Part shown: piece after piece, positions 3,462-57,564 of the stretch
How the letters are laid out: each line of letters starts with the position of its first letter
Position numbering within the stretch: the stretch's first letter is position 1
Source of the DNA: a virus
DNA length: 64,000 bases
Direction: 5' to 3' (one strand)
Virus record (IMG/VR): IMGVR_UViG_3300029286_002355
Coordinates: 62,001 to 126,000 of that record
The notes under the pieces: generated by a model
What the model was told of the DNA's origin: nothing
Databases searched by the model: none
Seen by the model: the letters and a program-made list of their open reading frames with translations, nothing else
Program-made: the position numbers and the translations under genes

Positions 3462-4386
3462 TTTTTGCCCAATGATGAATGGCTTCTTTTATTCTTTTAT
3501 CTAACCCCGCTAATTTGCATTCAATCCAAAGCTCTTCTAACCTTTTCACATCCCCTTTGTTATTGTATGTCCATTGTCTTGATTTTAAATAGGGGATTCG
3601 TCGTCTAGAAATCATTTTCCCTGTGTAAACGTTCCATAAAATAGCGGCGTAAAAATCAGCCTTATATGCATCAGGTAGATTCGTCCATGGCTTATATGAT
3701 TCGGGCATTAAATAGCTTAATAACGCAGGCCATATAGGAGAAATGTAGATGCCTTTTTCGCAGTTGATTTCGATAGGAATAGACCATTGCACGAAATAAG
3801 GAATTACAGCATAATCATAATAAATATATGCTTCTCCATCAATGTATCTTTGTTGACCTGTGGCTAAAACTCCCGCCATAAAGGAAATAGAATCCCTTGA
3901 ATAAGGAAGGTATAACGATGGAACGTGAGACCAAATATATCTATTTTCACCATATTTTTTGAGACTTTTTTTAACAATGATTTTGCCAGAGAACGGAGAA
4001 TCGCTAATAGTATTGGCTAAGTTCGTATTTCCAGACCATTTGAAAGCGGGGAAATGGGTTTTAAACCACGACACTTTACCGGCAGTAGTAAGTCCGGCAA
4101 CAAAATCTCCATTCCATATGCTTGCATTAATTTTAATGTGATTTCTTATATACCACTTGATATACGGTACAGGAGCATTACGAATAACAGTTTTGACAGA
4201 AGGGGGTGGAATTCCTTCAATACCGTCTAGATCCCACATTTGGCTAAGAATATCGTTGGTAAGTCCTTTTCGTCCTTTGAAAAGAAATATTTTTGACGCA
4301 ATTTCACAATATTTGATACGAAGTCTATTGGCTATATTTCTTGTATTATCGATTAAATAATAGGGTTTGGGTGTTAAGGAGATCAT
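3454..4386 (-). CDS. Hypothetical protein, possibly degenerate LAGLIDADG-like
   Basis: The 310-residue protein is rich in aromatic residues (many Trp and Tyr) and basic. Near the middle, FMAGVLATGQ recalls the FLAGFLDGDG helix of LAGLIDADG homing endonucleases and is followed by a strand-rich stretch (IPYFVQWSIPIEI) as in that fold, but the catalytic acidic residues are absent. It may be a decayed or repurposed homing endonuclease, or an unrelated family; I cannot decide. Its ATG overlaps the stop of the SLOG gene (ATGA). Confidence 0.5.
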   Translation of the reverse strand: MISLTPKPYYLIDNTRNIANRLRIKYCEIASKIFLFKGRKGLTNDILSQMWDLDGIEGIPPPSVKTVIRNAPVPYIKWYIRNHIKINASIWNGDFVAGLTTAGKVSWFKTHFPAFKWSGNTNLANTISDSPFSGKIIVKKSLKKYGENRYIWSHVPSLYLPYSRDSISFMAGVLATGQQRYIDGEAYIYYDYAVIPYFVQWSIPIEINCEKGIYISPIWPALLSYLMPESYKPWTNLPDAYKADFYAAILWNVYTGKMISRRRIPYLKSRQWTYNNKGDVKRLEELWIECKLAGLDKRIKEAIHHWAKTV

Positions 4387-4826
4387 AAGGGTTCTTGAAG
4401 CGGATCGTATTCTGATAAAGAAGGTTGGGTAACTTGGGGAACTAATATTATTTTTTTCCCCATTGCTATTGCTTTTTTTATGGTATCTTCGGTTCCACCT
4501 TTGCGATCAGAGGCTACTACGGCAATTAAAACATCGGAATCTTTAGCAATTAGAGTGTTTCTAGCGAAGTTGATTTCAGCATAAGCCCATCTAGGATTCT
4601 GTTTTAGTTTTACGGGATCAAGCTTAGATTTGTCGGGATAGTGGATTATTTTTTGGGTATGGTATTCTTCTATAAAGATTTTTGCAAACCTATCGCCACC
4701 CTTGGGACAGCCTCCGGAAACAATAATATCGCCCTCTTCGTAAATCTCCAAAAAGATTTTTCTACAGGCGTCTAGGTCTTCTTTTGTATCTCTTCTTCTA
4801 GATCCCACTATACCTATATTTTTCAT
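4383..4826 (-). CDS. SLOG / DUF2493-like nucleotide-binding protein
   Basis: About 148 residues with a Rossmann-like SLOG fold: IGIVGSRR at the start, a VSGGCPKGGDRFA phosphate-binding loop near residue 40, and a KGGTEDTIKKA block at the C-terminal half. DUF2493/SLOG proteins bind nucleotides or nucleotide-derived signals and are frequent in phages and conflict systems; the ligand is unknown. I place the start at the ATG at 4826. A TATAAT box lies six bases upstream of it, so an independent transcript would be almost leaderless; otherwise it is read through from the AAA+ gene ending at 4845. Confidence 0.75.
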   Translation of the reverse strand: MKNIGIVGSRRRDTKEDLDACRKIFLEIYEEGDIIVSGGCPKGGDRFAKIFIEEYHTQKIIHYPDKSKLDPVKLKQNPRWAYAEINFARNTLIAKDSDVLIAVVASDRKGGTEDTIKKAIAMGKKIILVPQVTQPSLSEYDPLQEPL

Positions 4827-49475: not shown

Positions 49476-50075
49476 TCAATTATTTTTTAGACAACATTTT
49501 TTATATTTTAACACCTTACCTGTTCTAGCATCTATTTTCCCACATGGACAAGGATCGTTTCGTCCTGTTTTTTTACCACCCTTTATAGTAAACAATCCTT
49601 TCTTACCATAATCAATAAGGATTTTTCCAGAAAGATGATCCATTTCATGTTGGGCAGCTACAGCCAATAAACCATCATTGTTTTCGCTCTTGATATTTGA
49701 ATAATAGAAGGCAACTGTTTGTTCCCTTAATTTATCATCCTCAAGTAGTTGATATTTTATGATATAGTTGCAAAAACGCTTCGTATCTAAATATATACTA
49801 GGAAAAGACAAACATCCTTCACCATAAAAAACAATTTCATCTTCTGCGCTTACTATCTCTGGGTTAATGAAATGCAGAAATTGACCTTCGCTCCTAAGAA
49901 TAAAAATGCGTTTTGGAATACCAATTTGGATTGCCGATAATCCTATCCCATCGTTGTGCTTAGATAGGGTTTCTTCTAGTTTCTTGATTATATCCTTGGC
50001 TTCTTCTATAGAAGTAACGATTTCAGAAACCGTTCCTTTAAACCTACAAAAATCTGTGTCGTTGTTTTTCATCAT
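49476..50075 (-). CDS. def: Peptide deformylase with C-terminal SEC-C zinc motif
   Basis: The 199-residue protein has all three deformylase motifs: GIGLSAIQIG near residue 43, GEGCLSFP near 85 (Cys metal ligand), and HEMDHLSG near 141 (two His ligands and the catalytic Glu). After the catalytic domain comes GRNDPCPCGK ... KYKKCC, a SEC-C zinc-binding motif best known from SecA and usually involved in protein or ribosome contacts. Deformylases remove the formyl group from nascent proteins; short versions are known from phages, but this fusion is unusual. The start lies six bases past the TnpB stop. Confidence 0.88.
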   Translation of the reverse strand: MMKNNDTDFCRFKGTVSEIVTSIEEAKDIIKKLEETLSKHNDGIGLSAIQIGIPKRIFILRSEGQFLHFINPEIVSAEDEIVFYGEGCLSFPSIYLDTKRFCNYIIKYQLLEDDKLREQTVAFYYSNIKSENNDGLLAVAAQHEMDHLSGKILIDYGKKGLFTIKGGKKTGRNDPCPCGKIDARTGKVLKYKKCCLKNN

Positions 50076-50080
50076 TTATC

Positions 50081-51169
50081 TTATATGTTTATTGGTTTGT
50101 AACTGGCACCGTAGGGACCAGTAAGAAACCGTGACAAAATATTCCTACTTGCATTTATATCTGCGTTGTCAGCATGATCACAACTCTGACAGCGGAATAC
50201 TTCTCCGTCACGATTCTTCTTATCGGCAAGACCACATTTCGGACAGGTAATACTAGTATTGTAAGGAGAGACAGTACGAAAGCTAACACGGTTATCTTCG
50301 CACCTTTGTTCTAGTCTTCCTAACCAGTATTTCCAATTCCAACTGCCGATAGAACGACGAATATTTTTACTCAATCGTCGTTTGAGTTTTGAGTTCTTAC
50401 CCAAATTCTTTAATCCTTCAACCACAATCAAGTCAGGATTCGTTCTAATAACTTCCTTGGCTACTTCATCAATTCTTTGTTTTAAAGCCCTTCTAGCCCT
50501 GTCCTTGCCCTTAGAACCTTGCTTGCATCTCTTGACTCGCTCTATGTTCTGTTTAATATCCTTGCCTAATTGTTGTCCTGTTGAAAGAGAAGCTAAAGCA
50601 TTTATTCCTGTATCAATTCCAATACACTTTTTACCATCTTTCTTTGCTCCTGTTTCCGTTTCAAAAACAAATTGGACATAGTTTTCTGTTATTATGTAGG
50701 AATTGAGTCTTTTTCCTTTAATACAAAGTCTATTATAATGCTTGTGGAATTTGATTGGAATATCCATTGTTATTTTATTACCTACAGAAGCGATATGTAG
50801 CCAAGCATCAAATTGTTTTGCTTCTTTACTATCTTTGAGTTCTGCTATAGTGCAAGAGACATACATTCTTTTGCCTTTATGAACAGGCTTGACTAGTTTA
50901 TTTGGTTGATTCTTCCAACGTTCTTTTGAGGCGGAAATCATATCAAGTGATTCTCTTGCGGCTACTTTTCTTAACCTAGCAGAAAGCCATGTCTGAGGTA
51001 TATCAACAATTGGTTTTAAGAGTTGTGTTTTATCAGTTGGATTAGTCCATAAATAGCCAACAAAGCAATTTACTACCTTTCCATACTCTTGAAGAATGGT
51101 GAGTAGTTCTTGCTTTTTCTTTTGAGTAGCGAATTTAGTGCTACATTTTGTTGACCTTATTATTTTCAT
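50081..51169 (-). CDS. tnpB: TnpB, RNA-guided endonuclease (third lineage in window)
   Basis: The 362-residue protein has RuvC Asp in CIGIDTGINALAS, Glu in LIVVEGLKNLG, a four-Cys finger (CPKCGLADKK ... CQSCDH) and the last Asp in NADINASRNIL, ending RFLTGPYGASYKP, a tail frequent in one TnpB group. It differs clearly from the other two TnpBs. It overlaps the methylase-like gene upstream by four bases. The sequence around its stop contains ACTGG and CCAGT arms that could be part of a right-end RNA structure. Catalytic residues appear intact. Confidence 0.88.
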   Translation of the reverse strand: MKIIRSTKCSTKFATQKKKQELLTILQEYGKVVNCFVGYLWTNPTDKTQLLKPIVDIPQTWLSARLRKVAARESLDMISASKERWKNQPNKLVKPVHKGKRMYVSCTIAELKDSKEAKQFDAWLHIASVGNKITMDIPIKFHKHYNRLCIKGKRLNSYIITENYVQFVFETETGAKKDGKKCIGIDTGINALASLSTGQQLGKDIKQNIERVKRCKQGSKGKDRARRALKQRIDEVAKEVIRTNPDLIVVEGLKNLGKNSKLKRRLSKNIRRSIGSWNWKYWLGRLEQRCEDNRVSFRTVSPYNTSITCPKCGLADKKNRDGEVFRCQSCDHADNADINASRNILSRFLTGPYGASYKPINI

Positions 51170-51705
51170 TCTATTTTAAGCCCGTCAAGTAATTTCCCAT
51201 CTTTTATCTTTTTTATGGTTTCCAAACATCTTGATTCTGACAAGTAATTGTTAAATGTCTCTCCTTTGGGCAATTTAAGATAATCAAGTGACCCATTTGG
51301 AAATTGTGTTAAAGGAACATGAACTATATTTTTCGCCAACTGCTTAATAATTTCTATGTAATCTTGTTGTGATAGTTTTACGGTCTTATATTTAGTAATA
51401 ACTTTTAGGAGTCTCAATCTGCATTCATTTACGTTATCTCTAAATATATCGCATCCATATATTGTTGATATGGCTTGAACGGGGTGGGCGTGTTTTAGTT
51501 TTCTTTTGAGCACAGGAATTAAGAGTTGACCATTTCCACAGGCGGGGTCTATAATTGTTTTCTCTGGATTGGAGAACAAATCAGGAGAGTATTCTTCCAT
51601 TTTTGAGCACATTTCTTCTGCAAGAAGAAGTGGCGTAAAGCATTCTGCGGATTGCTTACGCCTTTTATCTCTTTTTTCTTCTATTGATTGGTTCTCATTA
51701 TTCAT
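51166..51705 (-). CDS. N6-adenine methylase-like protein, motif I half
   Basis: The 179-residue protein has ECFTPLLLAEEM and the SAM-binding motif IIDPACGNGQLLIPVL, followed by IYGCDIF (motif II), as in Type I/Eco57I-type N6-adenine methylases. The catalytic NPPY motif is missing and the protein ends early. It may be a truncated enzyme or a SAM-binding partner of the NPPY-bearing protein at 52447-53613. Confidence 0.7.
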   Translation of the reverse strand: MNNENQSIEEKRDKRRKQSAECFTPLLLAEEMCSKMEEYSPDLFSNPEKTIIDPACGNGQLLIPVLKRKLKHAHPVQAISTIYGCDIFRDNVNECRLRLLKVITKYKTVKLSQQDYIEIIKQLAKNIVHVPLTQFPNGSLDYLKLPKGETFNNYLSESRCLETIKKIKDGKLLDGLKIE

Positions 51706-51709
51706 GGAT

Positions 51710-52450
51710 TTATATTCCGTTATAAATTAAATTGCACTTTTTATTGCAATCAAAAAAGTATGTTTGTAATTTCGATGAACGTAATTTTTCATCGTCTAAT
51801 CTTTTTTGAATTATATTTTGAAAATCCTCTCCTTGATTTACGCCTATTCCCTCAAATCCATTATTTGAATAATACATGTGATATGTGTCAGGAGATAAAT
51901 CCTCTAATTCTAGCGAAGACGTAAAAGAAGCATATGGGATTATTATAAGCCGATATCCATTTATATTTTGATATTTCTTTATCTTAGAGCATATTCCATC
52001 TATCATCTTCTGAACAAGGAATGAGGAATTGGGGCAATAACAGCAAATACTTTCATCTATATTGCCAGTCGCCACTGAATTTTTATCTACAGGCTTCGTA
52101 TTGTGAATTTTCTTGTCGGTTTCATTGTCTAAATTTACAGTAAAACATTCTATAATGACTTTTGCATTATCGTCAACAAAATCAGGAGTCAACCCGCTTA
52201 TATCTTTCTCGTATTCAAGATGTAATTTTTCTTGGTTGATGAAATGTTCTGATATTGACAACTCATTTATAAATTCTAGTCCCTGAATGTTTTTTCTATG
52301 AGATTCTTTTTCTTTACTATTTATTAGCGAAATTAACTTTTTTAGTATCTTTTGTTGAGATGATTGACCAAAATTAGGCAATATCCTTTTTAAGTTTTCT
52401 TTAATGGACGAATTCATTTTTAGTGTATCTATTTCTTCCGTTATATTCAT
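51710..52450 (-). CDS. Putative restriction endonuclease-like protein
   Basis: The 246-residue protein has a helical N-terminus and a region LHLEYEKDISGLTPDFVDDNAKVIIECFTVN, which resembles the PD-...-E-x-x nuclease core (PDF followed by IIECF). No family is certain. It is tightly packed between two methylase genes, with a four-base overlap upstream, which supports a restriction role. Confidence 0.5.
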   Translation of the reverse strand: MNITEEIDTLKMNSSIKENLKRILPNFGQSSQQKILKKLISLINSKEKESHRKNIQGLEFINELSISEHFINQEKLHLEYEKDISGLTPDFVDDNAKVIIECFTVNLDNETDKKIHNTKPVDKNSVATGNIDESICCYCPNSSFLVQKMIDGICSKIKKYQNINGYRLIIIPYASFTSSLELEDLSPDTYHMYYSNNGFEGIGVNQGEDFQNIIQKRLDDEKLRSSKLQTYFFDCNKKCNLIYNGI

Positions 52451-53613
52451 TTTACAAACTCCTTCCAGAAATCTTTCTTTAAGAATTCAAAAACCTCTGG
52501 TTCAATTGAAAACCCAGACCACTTACAAATATTCATCATCTCTATGAATTTTTCCGACCTTATTGCCGCAATTATGTTTTCGGCTTCTTTTGTGTTATCA
52601 ACTTCTATGGCTATACAGTTGTTTGTCACTCCATATTCGCCTTTTTCATCATAAAAACAGTTTTCTGGACTTGCCTTTCCTAAGATAACTTTCTTCACTC
52701 CGAAATGCCCATCTTTTTTAGAAGAATATAACAAAACAGGTGTCTTACCACATGGCGTAGAGTAAATGCATGGATATAAAAACTTATCATCTTTCTCTTT
52801 AGACATCCAAGGCTTATCGTTTCCATACATTGACCTTGAGTGAATAACCTTTATTCGTTTTTCGCCCTTGATCCCTATACATTTTTCTAGTATTTCAGAA
52901 TGCTTATGGGAAATAAATGGCTTAGAAGACATATCAATTTTTTTAGAAACCCCATCTTCGTCTAAAATTATTGTGCCATTCTTTCTGGCTTTATTTATTA
53001 ATACATACCAGTCATATCTTGTTCCGCATCCAAACGTTTTCTGCCCATCAGACTGATTATGAATTTCCAAATATTCCAATTGCTTATCTTGGAATACGGA
53101 ATATAGAGGGTGATTGGGTTTTCTCCAAGCACTAGGATGAATGAGGGAAATAATTCCTCCATCATTAACAATATTAAATCCCATTTCAACAAATCTTTGC
53201 CAAAGAGATTTGTGCTTATTTTTTGGGTCTTGATAAGGAGGATTTCCTATAACACAATCCCAAGTCCTTATCTCTTTCTTTTCTTGCACCTTCTCAAAGA
53301 AATCAAAAAAGTCATCACTCATAATTTCTACTCCTATTTTTTGTCCAAATTTAGCCTTTTGTTCACAATCTGTGAAGAAACAAATATCTTTAGGATCAAT
53401 CCCTATTTCAACAAGAACTATAGCAATTTCCAAATTCGTAACCAATATCTTTTTGCCCTTTAGTTCACAATACTTGCAAACCTTATCAATCATTTTCTCG
53501 CAAAGATCATAGGGTGTAAAAACATTCTGCAAGTTATTATCAAGAGTTGCCCACTCCTTGAATACTTCTTGATAATACTCTCTAAGAGCCAATTGTTTTG
53601 CTGACAGAATCAT
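52447..53613 (-). CDS. N6-adenine DNA methyltransferase (Eco57I-like)
   Basis: The 388-residue protein has NVFTPYDLCEKMIDKV at the N-terminus, CVIGNPPYQDPKNKHKSLWQ with the catalytic NPPY motif near residue 130, and GGIISLIHPSAWRKP downstream; the C-terminal half is probably the target recognition region. Motif I is weak (KILVTNLEIAIVLVEIG). It should methylate adenine in a specific site, protecting phage or element DNA against the linked nuclease and helicase. Confidence 0.82.
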   Translation of the reverse strand: MILSAKQLALREYYQEVFKEWATLDNNLQNVFTPYDLCEKMIDKVCKYCELKGKKILVTNLEIAIVLVEIGIDPKDICFFTDCEQKAKFGQKIGVEIMSDDFFDFFEKVQEKKEIRTWDCVIGNPPYQDPKNKHKSLWQRFVEMGFNIVNDGGIISLIHPSAWRKPNHPLYSVFQDKQLEYLEIHNQSDGQKTFGCGTRYDWYVLINKARKNGTIILDEDGVSKKIDMSSKPFISHKHSEILEKCIGIKGEKRIKVIHSRSMYGNDKPWMSKEKDDKFLYPCIYSTPCGKTPVLLYSSKKDGHFGVKKVILGKASPENCFYDEKGEYGVTNNCIAIEVDNTKEAENIIAAIRSEKFIEMMNICKWSGFSIEPEVFEFLKKDFWKEFVK

Positions 53614-55823
53614 AACGCAAATTCCTTTCGCAACGCCTCTTTCTCGCTATCCACTTGTTTCCTAAACTCTTCTTGCTTTTTTCTTTCCTCAATTGAAAGA
53701 ATAATACTAAATTCATGCTCAATCTCTTCAGGAACAGTATAGGTCTTTTCAATTCTAGGCGGTGGGACAGTAATCATCTTGCCATCATAGGTTTCCTCAT
53801 TGAATATCTCATAAGGGCAATACCCAATATCGGACTGAATCTGATCCACCATTCTCTCAATATTGTTTCTGTTAATATCGCTAAATCCACAATACTTTGG
53901 CATAATAACATAACAGAATGGCTTATAGAACTTCCCTTTATAGCAATCCGAAGGAACGATCAATCCTTTGGACAATCTTTCTCTATCAAAAGGATGAAGT
54001 CTCATTCCCCTACCCAAAGCCTGACTTGAAGTAATATCACTCATGTCTCCAAAGGGAAGAATAGCATTAATCCCCGGCACATCCCATCCTTCACCTACCA
54101 TTGCAATATGAAGAATAATAGCCTTTTCATCTGGTGCCTTATTCGCCAAATCTTCCATAAATTGATTTATGTTATGGGCATTAGAAGGATATGGCACTCC
54201 GTTTCTGTAAACATTCCAATCACTTGAAACGGCATAAATAGCTACATCGGGCAATTCTTTCTGATAGTTCTTGAAAGTCTTGGATTTAATCGCTTCAGAA
54301 TAAGATTTTCCACCCGGACATCTCACAAGAAGTTTTACTCCATTTGCCTTACTGTTGACAGAATGCTTGTCGTTAATCCTTGCCACTTCTTTCCAAGATT
54401 CCCATATAATGTACGCATTGAGTTCTGCATTTTTTGTAATCTCTTCCTGTGTTGCAGTAGAAATATCAACATGCTTTCTTAAAACCGCTTTGGTAATTGA
54501 CAAATGACACAAGAGAGGTCTTACAATCTTACCCAATTCAATCATTTCTTTTGGACTCTTCCTAGAAATAACTTCTCCAAACAACTCTGTATTATCCATG
54601 CCTTTGCCGTCTACAATAGGTGCATCGGGAGTTCCGCTTAACGCTTGTGTTGCAGTATAAAAGACCGTTAATGGGGAAAGCATCTTGGCTTCTTTAGAAA
54701 TAACCGATTCCCTACTCTTTTGAGGAATACTTCTTCCTTTCACTATATTATGGGCTTCATCGCAGTTAATCAAGTCAAACTTCATTCCTGACTCAATAAT
54801 CTTATAAACTGAATGATATGTTGTGAAAATAAGGGCTAGTCCATTTGAATCATTCACAGCCTTATTTAGTTGTTCTATATTAGTGGTATTTACCACTTCT
54901 TCTATGCCAGTATTCATTCTGGCTAGATTATCATTGTCATAGTCGCCAGAAGTAAAATTAACTACTGTCACGTTATCAATCCCATACTGCTTAAGGCGAT
55001 TGATTATCTTCTTTATTCCTTGCTTTCCAAGAGTAATTCTAGGCGAAACAAAAAGGATTTTAGAATGAGGCTTGTATTTTAATACATCACCAGACAACTC
55101 AATTGAATACTCCATCATAATTTCATTTTTGCCAGTTCCAGTAGGCCAAATAACTTGATATCTACCCTGCTTTTTACTTAGCAATGCCTTAATTGCTTCC
55201 ACTTGGTATGCGTCTGGAACAAAATCCATTGAACATGATAAAACTTCATTGACGGCATTTTCCAAAGATTCCCTATATGCCTTCCAAAAACCAATATTAC
55301 CATCAACCAAAGACTTAATCTCGTTAATTCCGTAAAATTGAGTTTTCTCTGGCAAAACAAAGTTCTTTATAGTGTTTTCATGAATCGCAACAGAATCAGA
55401 AAATATATTGAAAACTTTTTCATCGGCAGACAAATCAAATCCGTCAAGATAGCATGATTGAGAAAAGTATTCAGTAAGTTGACTGTTGCCATCCGTCATA
55501 AACTCTTTGCCATTAAAGGCGAAGAAAGCAGTTACAACCTTGCCATTTCTCTTGCCAAGACCATGAGCCTTATATTTATGATTAATCGAATTAATATTTT
55601 CGTAATCACTTATGCCAATTTTATCTCCAAAATAAAGTATCAATGCTTCCACAAAAGACTGAAAGCCACTCTCAATAAAGTCTTTAGCCGTTTTACTTTC
55701 TAGTGAAAGTTTCCTAAGATTTTGTCCAAATCCGTCAAAGGACAAATCAGAAGGCATCAAATTACCAGCATTAGAGACGCTTCCATTAAGGATTTTGAAT
55801 TTGAATATATGATTTGTTTTCAT
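53610..55823 (-). CDS. SF2 helicase of restriction-type (Type I/III R-like)
   Basis: About 737 residues from the ATG at 55823, whose ATGA overlaps the preceding stop. Residues 220-640 are an SF2 helicase: WPTGTGKNEIMMEYS (motif I), FVSPRITLG, IFTTYHSV, INCDEAHNI (DEAH motif II), FYTATQALSG (motif III) and QALGRGMRLHP (motif VI). The residue after GK in motif I is Asn instead of Thr/Ser, which is unusual. The N-terminal 200 residues are unassigned and could contain a nuclease or a recognition domain. It probably couples DNA translocation to the neighbouring nuclease. Confidence 0.82.
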   Translation of the reverse strand: MKTNHIFKFKILNGSVSNAGNLMPSDLSFDGFGQNLRKLSLESKTAKDFIESGFQSFVEALILYFGDKIGISDYENINSINHKYKAHGLGKRNGKVVTAFFAFNGKEFMTDGNSQLTEYFSQSCYLDGFDLSADEKVFNIFSDSVAIHENTIKNFVLPEKTQFYGINEIKSLVDGNIGFWKAYRESLENAVNEVLSCSMDFVPDAYQVEAIKALLSKKQGRYQVIWPTGTGKNEIMMEYSIELSGDVLKYKPHSKILFVSPRITLGKQGIKKIINRLKQYGIDNVTVVNFTSGDYDNDNLARMNTGIEEVVNTTNIEQLNKAVNDSNGLALIFTTYHSVYKIIESGMKFDLINCDEAHNIVKGRSIPQKSRESVISKEAKMLSPLTVFYTATQALSGTPDAPIVDGKGMDNTELFGEVISRKSPKEMIELGKIVRPLLCHLSITKAVLRKHVDISTATQEEITKNAELNAYIIWESWKEVARINDKHSVNSKANGVKLLVRCPGGKSYSEAIKSKTFKNYQKELPDVAIYAVSSDWNVYRNGVPYPSNAHNINQFMEDLANKAPDEKAIILHIAMVGEGWDVPGINAILPFGDMSDITSSQALGRGMRLHPFDRERLSKGLIVPSDCYKGKFYKPFCYVIMPKYCGFSDINRNNIERMVDQIQSDIGYCPYEIFNEETYDGKMITVPPPRIEKTYTVPEEIEHEFSIILSIEERKKQEEFRKQVDSEKEALRKEFAL

Positions 55824-56512
55824 GCTTTCACCATTTCGCAAAATGTTTTCCAAAACGTAGGATTGTTGCCACAGACAGACTTCAAAGAACAAACTTCGGT
55901 TGGATCGTTATTTGGAAGATAAATTCCACCAGACTCTTCTTGGGCTATGAATTTCAATCTCCCATGAAAATGTCCACCTAAAGTCATCCAATTTATATCG
56001 TGAGCCAAGGTAAAGACAAACATTTGATCTCTACTTGTGGTTCCAACTCCATATTTTGAAATTGAAGTCCAATGAAAGGTTCTTAACTTTCTTTTAATAT
56101 GATCAAGGGCAGTAGACCAATTGCCATATTTGACCTGAACTGTAATAACTCTTCCGTCTTTTGTCTTGCCTGTTCCGTCCACTCCTACATCTTGATCTTC
56201 CCCGCAAACAGAAAAGAATGGAACATAATTATAAATTCCCCATGTTCTCCCATATCCTTTAAGGACATATTCTGCAAAAACTTCTGTTACGTCACCTTTG
56301 AAAGAATTCGCTCCATCCTCGCCATATTTATCAAAGAAATCAACTTTTTCTGATTTTTCTATAATTCCAACCTGTTTTTCTATTCTGGAAGCAAAACAAG
56401 ACAATGAACTACACTTCTCTAAAAGCACATCCCAACATTTAACCGCAACCTTTCTTGGATGGGTTATCGAAGTTGCCAACATATCATCGTCTAATTGGTT
56501 ATCGTTATTCAT
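55820..56512 (-). CDS. PD-(D/E)xK-type restriction endonuclease-like protein
   Basis: The 230-residue protein contains FKGDVTEVFAEYVLKGYG, then DQDVGVDGTGKTKDG and VITVQVKYGNW, which fits the nuclease order E ... D-x(n)-[EQ]-x-K (here GVD and QVK), as in restriction-endonuclease-like and Mrr-like domains. It lies between the recombinase and helicase genes with four-base overlaps on both sides. The nuclease call rests on this motif and context. Confidence 0.62.
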   Translation of the reverse strand: MNNDNQLDDDMLATSITHPRKVAVKCWDVLLEKCSSLSCFASRIEKQVGIIEKSEKVDFFDKYGEDGANSFKGDVTEVFAEYVLKGYGRTWGIYNYVPFFSVCGEDQDVGVDGTGKTKDGRVITVQVKYGNWSTALDHIKRKLRTFHWTSISKYGVGTTSRDQMFVFTLAHDINWMTLGGHFHGRLKFIAQEESGGIYLPNNDPTEVCSLKSVCGNNPTFWKTFCEMVKA

Positions 56513-57195
56513 TCTATTCCTTTCTCAATTGTTGGCGTCATCATACCAGAACCATTGAGTAAGTCAAGCTCTTTCTGCAATTTTTTCTCTTTTCTTCGTT
56601 TTGCTGACCTTTTCCCGTAAAGTCGCCCTGAGAAAACAGCCATAAGCATCATAATATCTTGAACTAATTCCTCTTCATCATTAGAAGACGTAGATTCAAC
56701 CTTCTCTATTTCAACACCATAACTATCAAAAAATCTCACTAATACATTAAATTGGAAACGTGTCAATCTATCTTTATGCTCTACAATTACTTTAGATACT
56801 TTCTTCTGAATTACAAGATCAAATAATTTGTTAAATCCACTTCTTGTATCCGACAATCCCGAACCAACATCTTTGATAATGTGTTCAACTCTATACTTCT
56901 TTTTGGCACAGTATTCAGACAATCTTTGACTCTGCCTATCTAAATCTCCTTTTTGTTTCTGTTCATGGCTACTCACTCTAGCATAGGTAGCAACAGGAAG
57001 AAGATTTCTATTTACTTCTTCCTCTTTAATTCCCATGTAAGAATTAATATCGCTCTGCTTATACCTACGATGACCACCTTTTGTTCTAACTGGCTTTAGA
57101 GTTCCATCGGCGTCCCAATTCCTTAAGGTTTCTTGGGATACATTGAGTCTAAGGCAAGTTTCCGCCATACTAAGGAGTTTATCTTTTTCTAGCAT
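56509..57195 (-). CDS. tnpA: IS607-family serine recombinase (TnpA)
   Basis: The 228-residue protein joins an N-terminal MerR-type HTH (LLSMAETCLRLNVSQETLRNW ... GHRRYKQSDI) to a resolvase-like catalytic domain: YARVSSHEQK with the nucleophile Ser75, DRQSQRLSEYC, DVGSGLSDTRSGF and EHKDRLTRF. This order (DNA-binding domain first) is diagnostic of IS607 transposases. They integrate with little target specificity by serine recombination. Here the usual tnpB partner is five genes downstream. Confidence 0.92.
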   Translation of the reverse strand: MLEKDKLLSMAETCLRLNVSQETLRNWDADGTLKPVRTKGGHRRYKQSDINSYMGIKEEEVNRNLLPVATYARVSSHEQKQKGDLDRQSQRLSEYCAKKKYRVEHIIKDVGSGLSDTRSGFNKLFDLVIQKKVSKVIVEHKDRLTRFQFNVLVRFFDSYGVEIEKVESTSSNDEEELVQDIMMLMAVFSGRLYGKRSAKRRKEKKLQKELDLLNGSGMMTPTIEKGIE

Positions 57196-57418
57196 TTCGC
57201 TTCTCCTTTTCTGACTTTTTAATGAATTCAGATATAAGCGACTTGGAATCGTTTATAAATTTTTGGAATTCTTCTAGTGTTGGCTCATATCCCAAATCAA
57301 ACGGAATTGGGTAAATGTCTCCCGTATCTAGTTCAAATTCTGTTTTAGAGACTCTAACGACCTTATGATTTTTATTTTCCATATCTTTAATTATCCTTGC
57401 AAATTTTGATGATTTCAT
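57179..57418 (-). CDS. Hypothetical protein (79 residues) preceding IS607-like tnpA
   Basis: A small protein starting MKSSKFARIIKDMENKNHKVVRVSKTEF with a basic, helical C-terminus (SEKEKRNARKR). I recognise no family. It overlaps the recombinase start by 17 bases and is the first gene of the operon, so it belongs to the mobile unit or is the host gene next to which it inserted. Confidence 0.55.
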   Translation of the reverse strand: MKSSKFARIIKDMENKNHKVVRVSKTEFELDTGDIYPIPFDLGYEPTLEEFQKFINDSKSLISEFIKKSEKEKRNARKR

Positions 57419-57440
57419 TTTTCATACTCCTTTATTCTAT

Positions 57441-57446
57441 ATTATA
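57441..57446 (-). promoter_or_regulatory. Candidate -10 box for the IS607-like operon
   Basis: GCAGTATAATATAG on the minus strand with AAGGAG just before the ATG at 57418. A TTTTCT 16 bases upstream is a weak -35 candidate. The rest of the 146-base gap to 57565 has a near-repeat (TGTAGATTTT, TGTAGGTTTT) on the plus strand. Confidence 0.45.
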
Positions 57447-57564
57447 CTGCGAAATTCCTGCAAGAAAATGAAAATATTTTTTAGGTGTTTGTAGATTTTT
57501 GTAGGTTTTCATTCAACGGTTGCCAACCCTCTTCAAAAGAGATATGTTTTCGATAATTTCCATA

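Follow-up and report, generated by a model that had tools for sequence, protein, structure and literature searches.

The window, a 64,000-nucleotide stretch of viral DNA (bases 62001-126000 of the 186,119-base IMG/VR virus record IMGVR_UViG_3300029286_002355), carries what is very probably a single IS607-family transposon with a restriction-like cargo between its transposase gene, tnpA, and its tnpB gene. We put the probability that the genes from a small open reading frame (ORF) and tnpA through the cargo to tnpB form one such element at about 0.95. The element ends, the target gene, the gene content, a split methylase and the cargo slot in relatives are all read from the sequence. The record represents a large phage with genes for a DNA polymerase, a ligase and a sliding clamp. 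The whole element measures 7.5 kb, and tnpA and tnpB are 5.3 kb and five genes apart, the largest tnpA-tnpB cargo found in our analysis. As the first-pass annotation had described, eight ORFs follow one another on the minus strand in the order small ORF, tnpA, nuclease, superfamily 2 (SF2) helicase, NPPY methylase, 246-residue protein, motif-I methylase (MT2) and tnpB. Their junctions mostly overlap, four of them by 4 bases, and the genes of the 246-residue protein and MT2 are spaced 4 bases apart with no overlap. All reading frames are intact, and the genes may be co-transcribed as a single transcript. The features are listed below in the direction of transcription.

57527..57531 (-): GAGGG at the left junction, comprising the target GG core (57528-57527) and a putative target-adjacent motif (TAM) of TnpB; it agrees with a published TAM and the published (G)GG target
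57440..57528 (-): left end, GGGTTGGCAACCGTT and word AAACCTACAAAAAT (57508-57495); motif conserved upstream of the small ORF in relatives
57179..57418 (-): small, conserved 79-residue accessory ORF of this IS607 group
56509..57195 (-): tnpA, IS607 serine transposase with N-terminal helix-turn-helix
55820..56512 (-): cargo 1, PD-(D/E)XK (Mrr-like) nuclease, from invariant residues and fold matches
53610..55829 (-): cargo 2, SF2 helicase/translocase, ResIII match
52447..53613 (-): cargo 3, NPPY (motif IV) and target-recognition-like subunit of a gamma adenine methylase, Eco57I match, motif I lost
51710..52450 (-): cargo 4, 246-residue protein, found only here
51166..51705 (-): cargo 5 (MT2), S-adenosylmethionine (SAM)-binding subunit with motif I DPACGNG and no motif IV, from motif table and profile
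50081..51169 (-): tnpB, predicted RNA-guided endonuclease
50030..50122 (-): putative guide-RNA scaffold (hairpin 50122-50102) and right end TTTAAAGGAACGG, with word ATTTTTGTAGGTTT at 50053-50040 and GG core at 50031-50030; conserved in relatives
50010..50029 (-): predicted guide, the ~20 bases of target gene sequence with which the right flank begins
49476..50075 (-): interrupted target, a SEC-C-tailed peptide deformylase; the initial ~12 codons are found at 57562-57527, and the joined flanks are in frame

Ends, target site and core genes

The ends were located by comparison with relatives, which placed the GG cores at 57528-57527 and 50031-50030. The element is thus longer than the range of 50081-57418 first given for it, and on the right it ends within the ORF annotated as deformylase. 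Downstream of tnpB, the window and seven relatives of its TnpB (eight aligned sequences) are conserved up to GGAACGGT and diverge beyond it, and GGGTTGNCAACNGTT or a near variant is present upstream of the small ORF in most relatives. These end motifs are found in the window at 57530 (left) and 50031 (right), and no further good copy of either was found between the two ends. Both ends contain a common 14-base inverted word, AAACCTACAAAAAT on the left and its reverse complement on the right, in keeping with the short repeated end motifs that IS607 elements have in place of terminal inverted repeats. Among 21 elements, the mean shared word was 9.3 bases for matched ends compared to 6.95 bases when the ends were mismatched, and the observed sum was not attained in any of 10,000 permutations. 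The end word varies between elements but agrees within each element, as would be expected if the TnpA of each element binds its own word.

Insertion of IS607 takes place at (G)GG and does not duplicate the target (PMC6188088). The junctions in the window are GAGGG and AACGG, and joining the flanks at their shared GG gives the site CTTTTGAAGAGGGTTTCTGAAATCG and an in-frame 196-residue peptide deformylase, MEIIENISLLKRVSEIVTSIEEAK..., the start of which lines up with viral deformylases, such as that of L062. The annotated deformylase ORF begins within the element, which supplies a substitute ATG 5 bases after tnpB. The same GG rule applied to an independent IS607 element in L022 (IMGVR_UViG_3300009702_000785) also restored a reading frame, that of a DUF559-like ORF (MKPLTSAEDALKS...). 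The evidence for GG insertion without target duplication comes from reconstruction rather than from a natural empty site, because no close relative of the genome was found.

The core genes agree with the family assignment. TnpA scored 205 bits against NF033518 (IS607 TnpA, cut-off of 110 bits) and consists of HTH_17 and Resolvase domains, which is the serine transposase with an N-terminal DNA-binding domain expected of IS607. TnpB scored 102.8 bits against NF040570 (guided TnpB, cut-off of 100 bits), its RuvC residues D, E and D and its zinc finger are readable, and it is 82% identical to the TnpB of L029, a relative without cargo. Both identifications had been made at first pass. A hairpin spanning the 3' end of tnpB was preserved in the window and the seven relatives, and three of its base pairs had changes in both partners, indicating covariation. 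An Rfam scan of the tnpB end returned no guide-RNA family, its best match being at chance level. Two TAMs of IS607 TnpB have been published, of which GAGGG is one (PMC11061315), and its presence at the left junction, together with the covarying hairpin, fits a working RNA-guided TnpB. The guide is predicted at 50010-50029 from the known location of TnpB guides and the right end. The small ORF, first described merely as a small protein at the head of the operon, is assigned here to the IS607 core because most relatives have it immediately upstream of tnpA. It has roughly 55-90 residues across this IS607 group, matched no entry in the family libraries, and could possibly be a regulator or a transposition factor. 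The element shares with IS607, IS1535, ISC1926 and ISFba1 a serine transposase, a GG target, the lack of inverted repeats and target duplication, a G-rich TAM and a guide RNA at the 3' end of tnpB. The 186-kb record contains nine genes with a TnpB zinc-finger domain as opposed to a single IS607 TnpA, a high TnpB load for one phage.

A restriction-like cargo with a split methylase

Residues E77, E81, D108, D112, Q126 and K128 of the nuclease were invariant in 13 homologues. Its predicted model resembled EcoO109I, Ecl18kI and LlaBIII, with a loose superposition that supports the fold class only. For the helicase, a search of the Protein Data Bank with the family profile gave LlaBIII (7e-29) and LlaGI (8e-29), both Type ISP restriction enzymes, as the best solved relatives. 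The 246-residue protein had been called a second nuclease-like protein; this did not hold, as it matched none of four family libraries and, over all fetched loci, hit only itself, and the nuclease assignment was dropped.

The first-pass annotation listed an NPPY methyltransferase and a separate methylase-like protein. Both are present, but they are best read as complementary parts of one split adenine methylase. The NPPY protein was modelled with a predicted local distance difference test score (pLDDT) of 91 and a fold like those of CamA, M.BseCI and M.TaqI, and the MT2 family profile matches residues 18-157 of CamA. Across contigs, the two genes adjoin in nearly all two-gene cases, and in several contigs the NPPY protein starts right at motif IV, with the entire SAM-binding part in MT2. 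Single-chain forms of 491-541 residues with both halves occur in L060, L061, L074, L079, L081 and L088. A complete methylase formed by the NPPY protein alone was rejected, as members of the two-gene form have no motif I. In the cyanophage ACG-2014f (L002, KJ019066.1), the hypothetical protein Syn7803C9_51 (4076-4480) is a member of the MT2 family encoded close to an annotated methyltransferase and helicase; it is probably the missing part of the methylase of this phage.

Type ISP enzymes carry a nuclease, a helicase and a methylase in this order along the protein. The cargo gene order follows the same arrangement, and an Mrr-like nuclease, an SF2 translocase and a gamma adenine methylase are all present. 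LlaBIII and LlaGI combine this set in one chain of ~1,500 residues, whereas in the window the components are separate proteins, the methylase is split again and an extra unmatched gene is present. Judged by its gene content, the cargo resembles a Type ISP restriction-modification (R-M) system taken apart into separate proteins; since it comprises four separate genes and not a single polypeptide, we describe it as Type ISP-like and do not assign it as a member. A PADLOC search for the signature gene sets of BREX, DISARM and MADS found none, with just weak partial methylase or helix-turn-helix matches.

Modules homologous to the cargo, but with no IS607, are found in jumbo phages, a cyanophage and contigs of Bacteroidota. 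The nuclease, helicase, NPPY and MT2 genes were found together in the 350-548 kb contigs L036, L038 and L045 of jumbo phages and in ACG-2014f. These modules hold the same four-gene set as the window, but no tnpA, tnpB or transposon ends were seen alongside, and their gene order varies. R-M genes free of tnpA and tnpB in related genomes had been named beforehand as evidence that would count against the element. Such genes do exist, although no genome close to that of the window was found among them; their occurrence makes the cargo an independent module that was captured, and it does not undo the capture itself. The module was linked to IS607 twice, in the window and in L022. The same four R-M genes lie within the ends of the L022 element. 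However, in L022 they are located between the left end and the small ORF-tnpA pair, and a DUF4238 gene occupies the position between tnpA and tnpB. The TnpA proteins of the two elements are not close, which points to separate associations of the module with IS607 as the probable history. Mariner elements of algal giant viruses are also virus-borne transposons with restriction-like genes (an endonuclease and a methyltransferase), but they differ in their DDE transposase, in the enzymes that they carry and in the kingdom of their hosts (PMC3627910).

A cargo slot in viral IS607 elements

Viral contigs yielded 56 clusters of TnpA at 90% identity, and in 52 of these TnpB followed downstream. The gap between tnpA and tnpB was 20 bases or less (overlapping or abutting genes) in 23 of them, 21-239 bases in five and 240 bases or more in 24; the counts near the thresholds are approximate, because gap sizes depend on the called start codons (tnpB of L155, for example, starts later than first called). 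Gaps of at least 240 bases were filled mostly by intact same-strand ORFs, and among the 52 distinct viral IS607 elements that have tnpB, about half hold genes in the tnpA-tnpB interval. In ordinary IS607 of three cultured phages, tnpA and tnpB overlap. A Bacteroidota sample searched for bacterial IS607 yielded 2 of 297 genomes above the cut-off, too few for gap sizes.

The slot cargo includes N6/N4 and D12 methylases, SF2 helicases, LAGLIDADG proteins, an M24 peptidase and DUF4238. On the TnpA tree, the cargo label was not clustered and changed at least 13 times on well-supported branches. Furthermore, elements with TnpA proteins at least 95% identical carried different cargo: L153 has two small ORFs where L155, L157 and L166 have a helicase, and L178 and L180 also differ. 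Up to the 3' end of tnpA, counted from the left end, the DNA of such pairs was 87-94% identical; it was unrelated in the middle and alike from the start of tnpB to the right end, and the breakpoints, where tnpA ends and where tnpB starts, were sharp. We see an even chance that the IS607 elements of large phages constitute a class of cargo transposons, in which the tnpA-tnpB boundary would be a recombination slot exchanging whole cassettes (restriction systems, helicases, methylases, homing endonucleases and other enzymes). TnpA would mobilise such elements and RNA-guided TnpB would retain them, and phages would trade competition genes by transposition.

LAGLIDADG proteins lie between tnpA and tnpB in L178 (10684-12675) and L179 (679-2154), a homing-type endonuclease paired with TnpB in each case. 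The IS607 cargo of L151 (10638-11435) is an M24-family metallopeptidase, methionine aminopeptidase-like, which, like the deformylase targeted in the window, belongs to enzymes acting on protein N-termini. In L017 (9157-9998) and L021 (9098-9986), ORFs separate tnpA from the small ORF and not from tnpB, which suggests a second cargo slot.

Proposed role of the cargo and its significance

In the explanation that we favour, the 7.5-kb transposon would have inserted at GG in the 5' end of a phage deformylase gene, and TnpA would move it without inverted repeats or target duplication. The TnpB guide RNA would consist of a scaffold overlapping the 3' end of tnpB and a guide formed by the adjoining target sequence, and TnpB would recut empty target sites, favouring retention of the element. 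The exchangeable slot between tnpA and tnpB would here be filled by a dismantled Type ISP-like, ATP-dependent R-M system and one unmatched protein. Most likely, the methylase would mark the phage DNA, and the nuclease-translocase would cut the unmarked DNA of competing mobile elements; through such cutting the transposon, we propose, would benefit its carrier. Taken as a whole, with its presumed steps worded as such, we consider this explanation probable. Catalytic activity and a biological role in anti-phage defence or competitor exclusion are the presumptive part, and we lean, with less confidence, towards a Type ISP-like restriction system that is functional and is directed against competing DNA.

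Several results weigh against this explanation. Searches of IMG/VR for close relatives with helicase and radical-SAM queries found none, the deformylase relatives were just 34-41% identical, and no natural empty site was found. An in-frame join by itself has a chance of about one in three. In addition, the explanation has no part for the 246-residue protein, and the full gene order of the window was absent from every other element examined.

Other roles of the cargo are unlikely. In other systems, R-M genes behave as selfish modules, and the cargo could be mainly an addiction module, in which loss of the element exposes unmethylated DNA to attack; together with TnpB, which probably already serves retention, it would keep the element in the phage population with no benefit against competitors. 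However, most other slot cargo is not R-M, so that retention by cargo is not general, and the restriction module also occurs in phages without IS607. We give a similarly low rating to a function in the processing of DNA from the phage or its host (methylation serving packaging or replication, or breakdown of host DNA) with no restriction system. Phage helicase and methylase genes need not be defensive, and ACG-2014f retains the same four genes. On the other hand, the Mrr-like nuclease residues are invariant, the helicase is closest to Type ISP restriction enzymes, and the genes are scattered over many unrelated contigs. A fixed, inactive element, retained for its cargo or as a dead insertion, is more doubtful still: the record has a single IS607 transposase, but the frames are intact, the catalytic residues of TnpA and TnpB are readable, and both ends and the guide-RNA hairpin are preserved. 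Finally, tnpA and tnpB as two separate elements or remains that bracket a resident phage restriction module by chance would accord with the module's existence in other phages without IS607 and with the abundance of TnpB-only elements, nine TnpB-domain genes to one IS607 TnpA in this record, but this is very improbable and already largely refuted by the single, mutually matching left and right ends with their common 14-base word and no internal end motif, by the restored deformylase frame and by elements with near-identical TnpA that show the same slot with other cargo.

The mobile element with R-M-like cargo between its two genes, as first proposed, is thus upheld by its ends, the restored target gene and its relatives. 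The other refuting case named beforehand, in which tnpA and tnpB would belong to separate elements each having its own ends, fails, as a single left end matches a single right end. Published IS607 forms contain just a transposase and TnpB, and a survey reported just overlapping or separated gene pairs (PMC9956272), whereas the window has five cargo genes between the two and a conserved small ORF upstream. TnpA alone suffices for IS607 transposition (PMC6188088), so the two-gene content is the usual layout and not a requirement. The initial statement that no described element with this layout was known agrees with our search, in which no published account of an IS607 element with tnpA-tnpB cargo was found in the open-access literature (most subscription papers and most preprints were outside the search); the layout is nevertheless not isolated, being one of a wider viral cargo-IS607 family.

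A single element predicts that a GG-joined empty site is left behind, and a split methylase predicts that the two proteins are needed together, neither being active alone. Insertion sequences bearing TnpB are usually treated as cargo-free minimal elements that spread via RNA-guided retention. An exchangeable cargo slot, if true, would let TnpB elements transport phage genes and would connect relatives of the Cas12 ancestors with the movement of restriction systems between phages.
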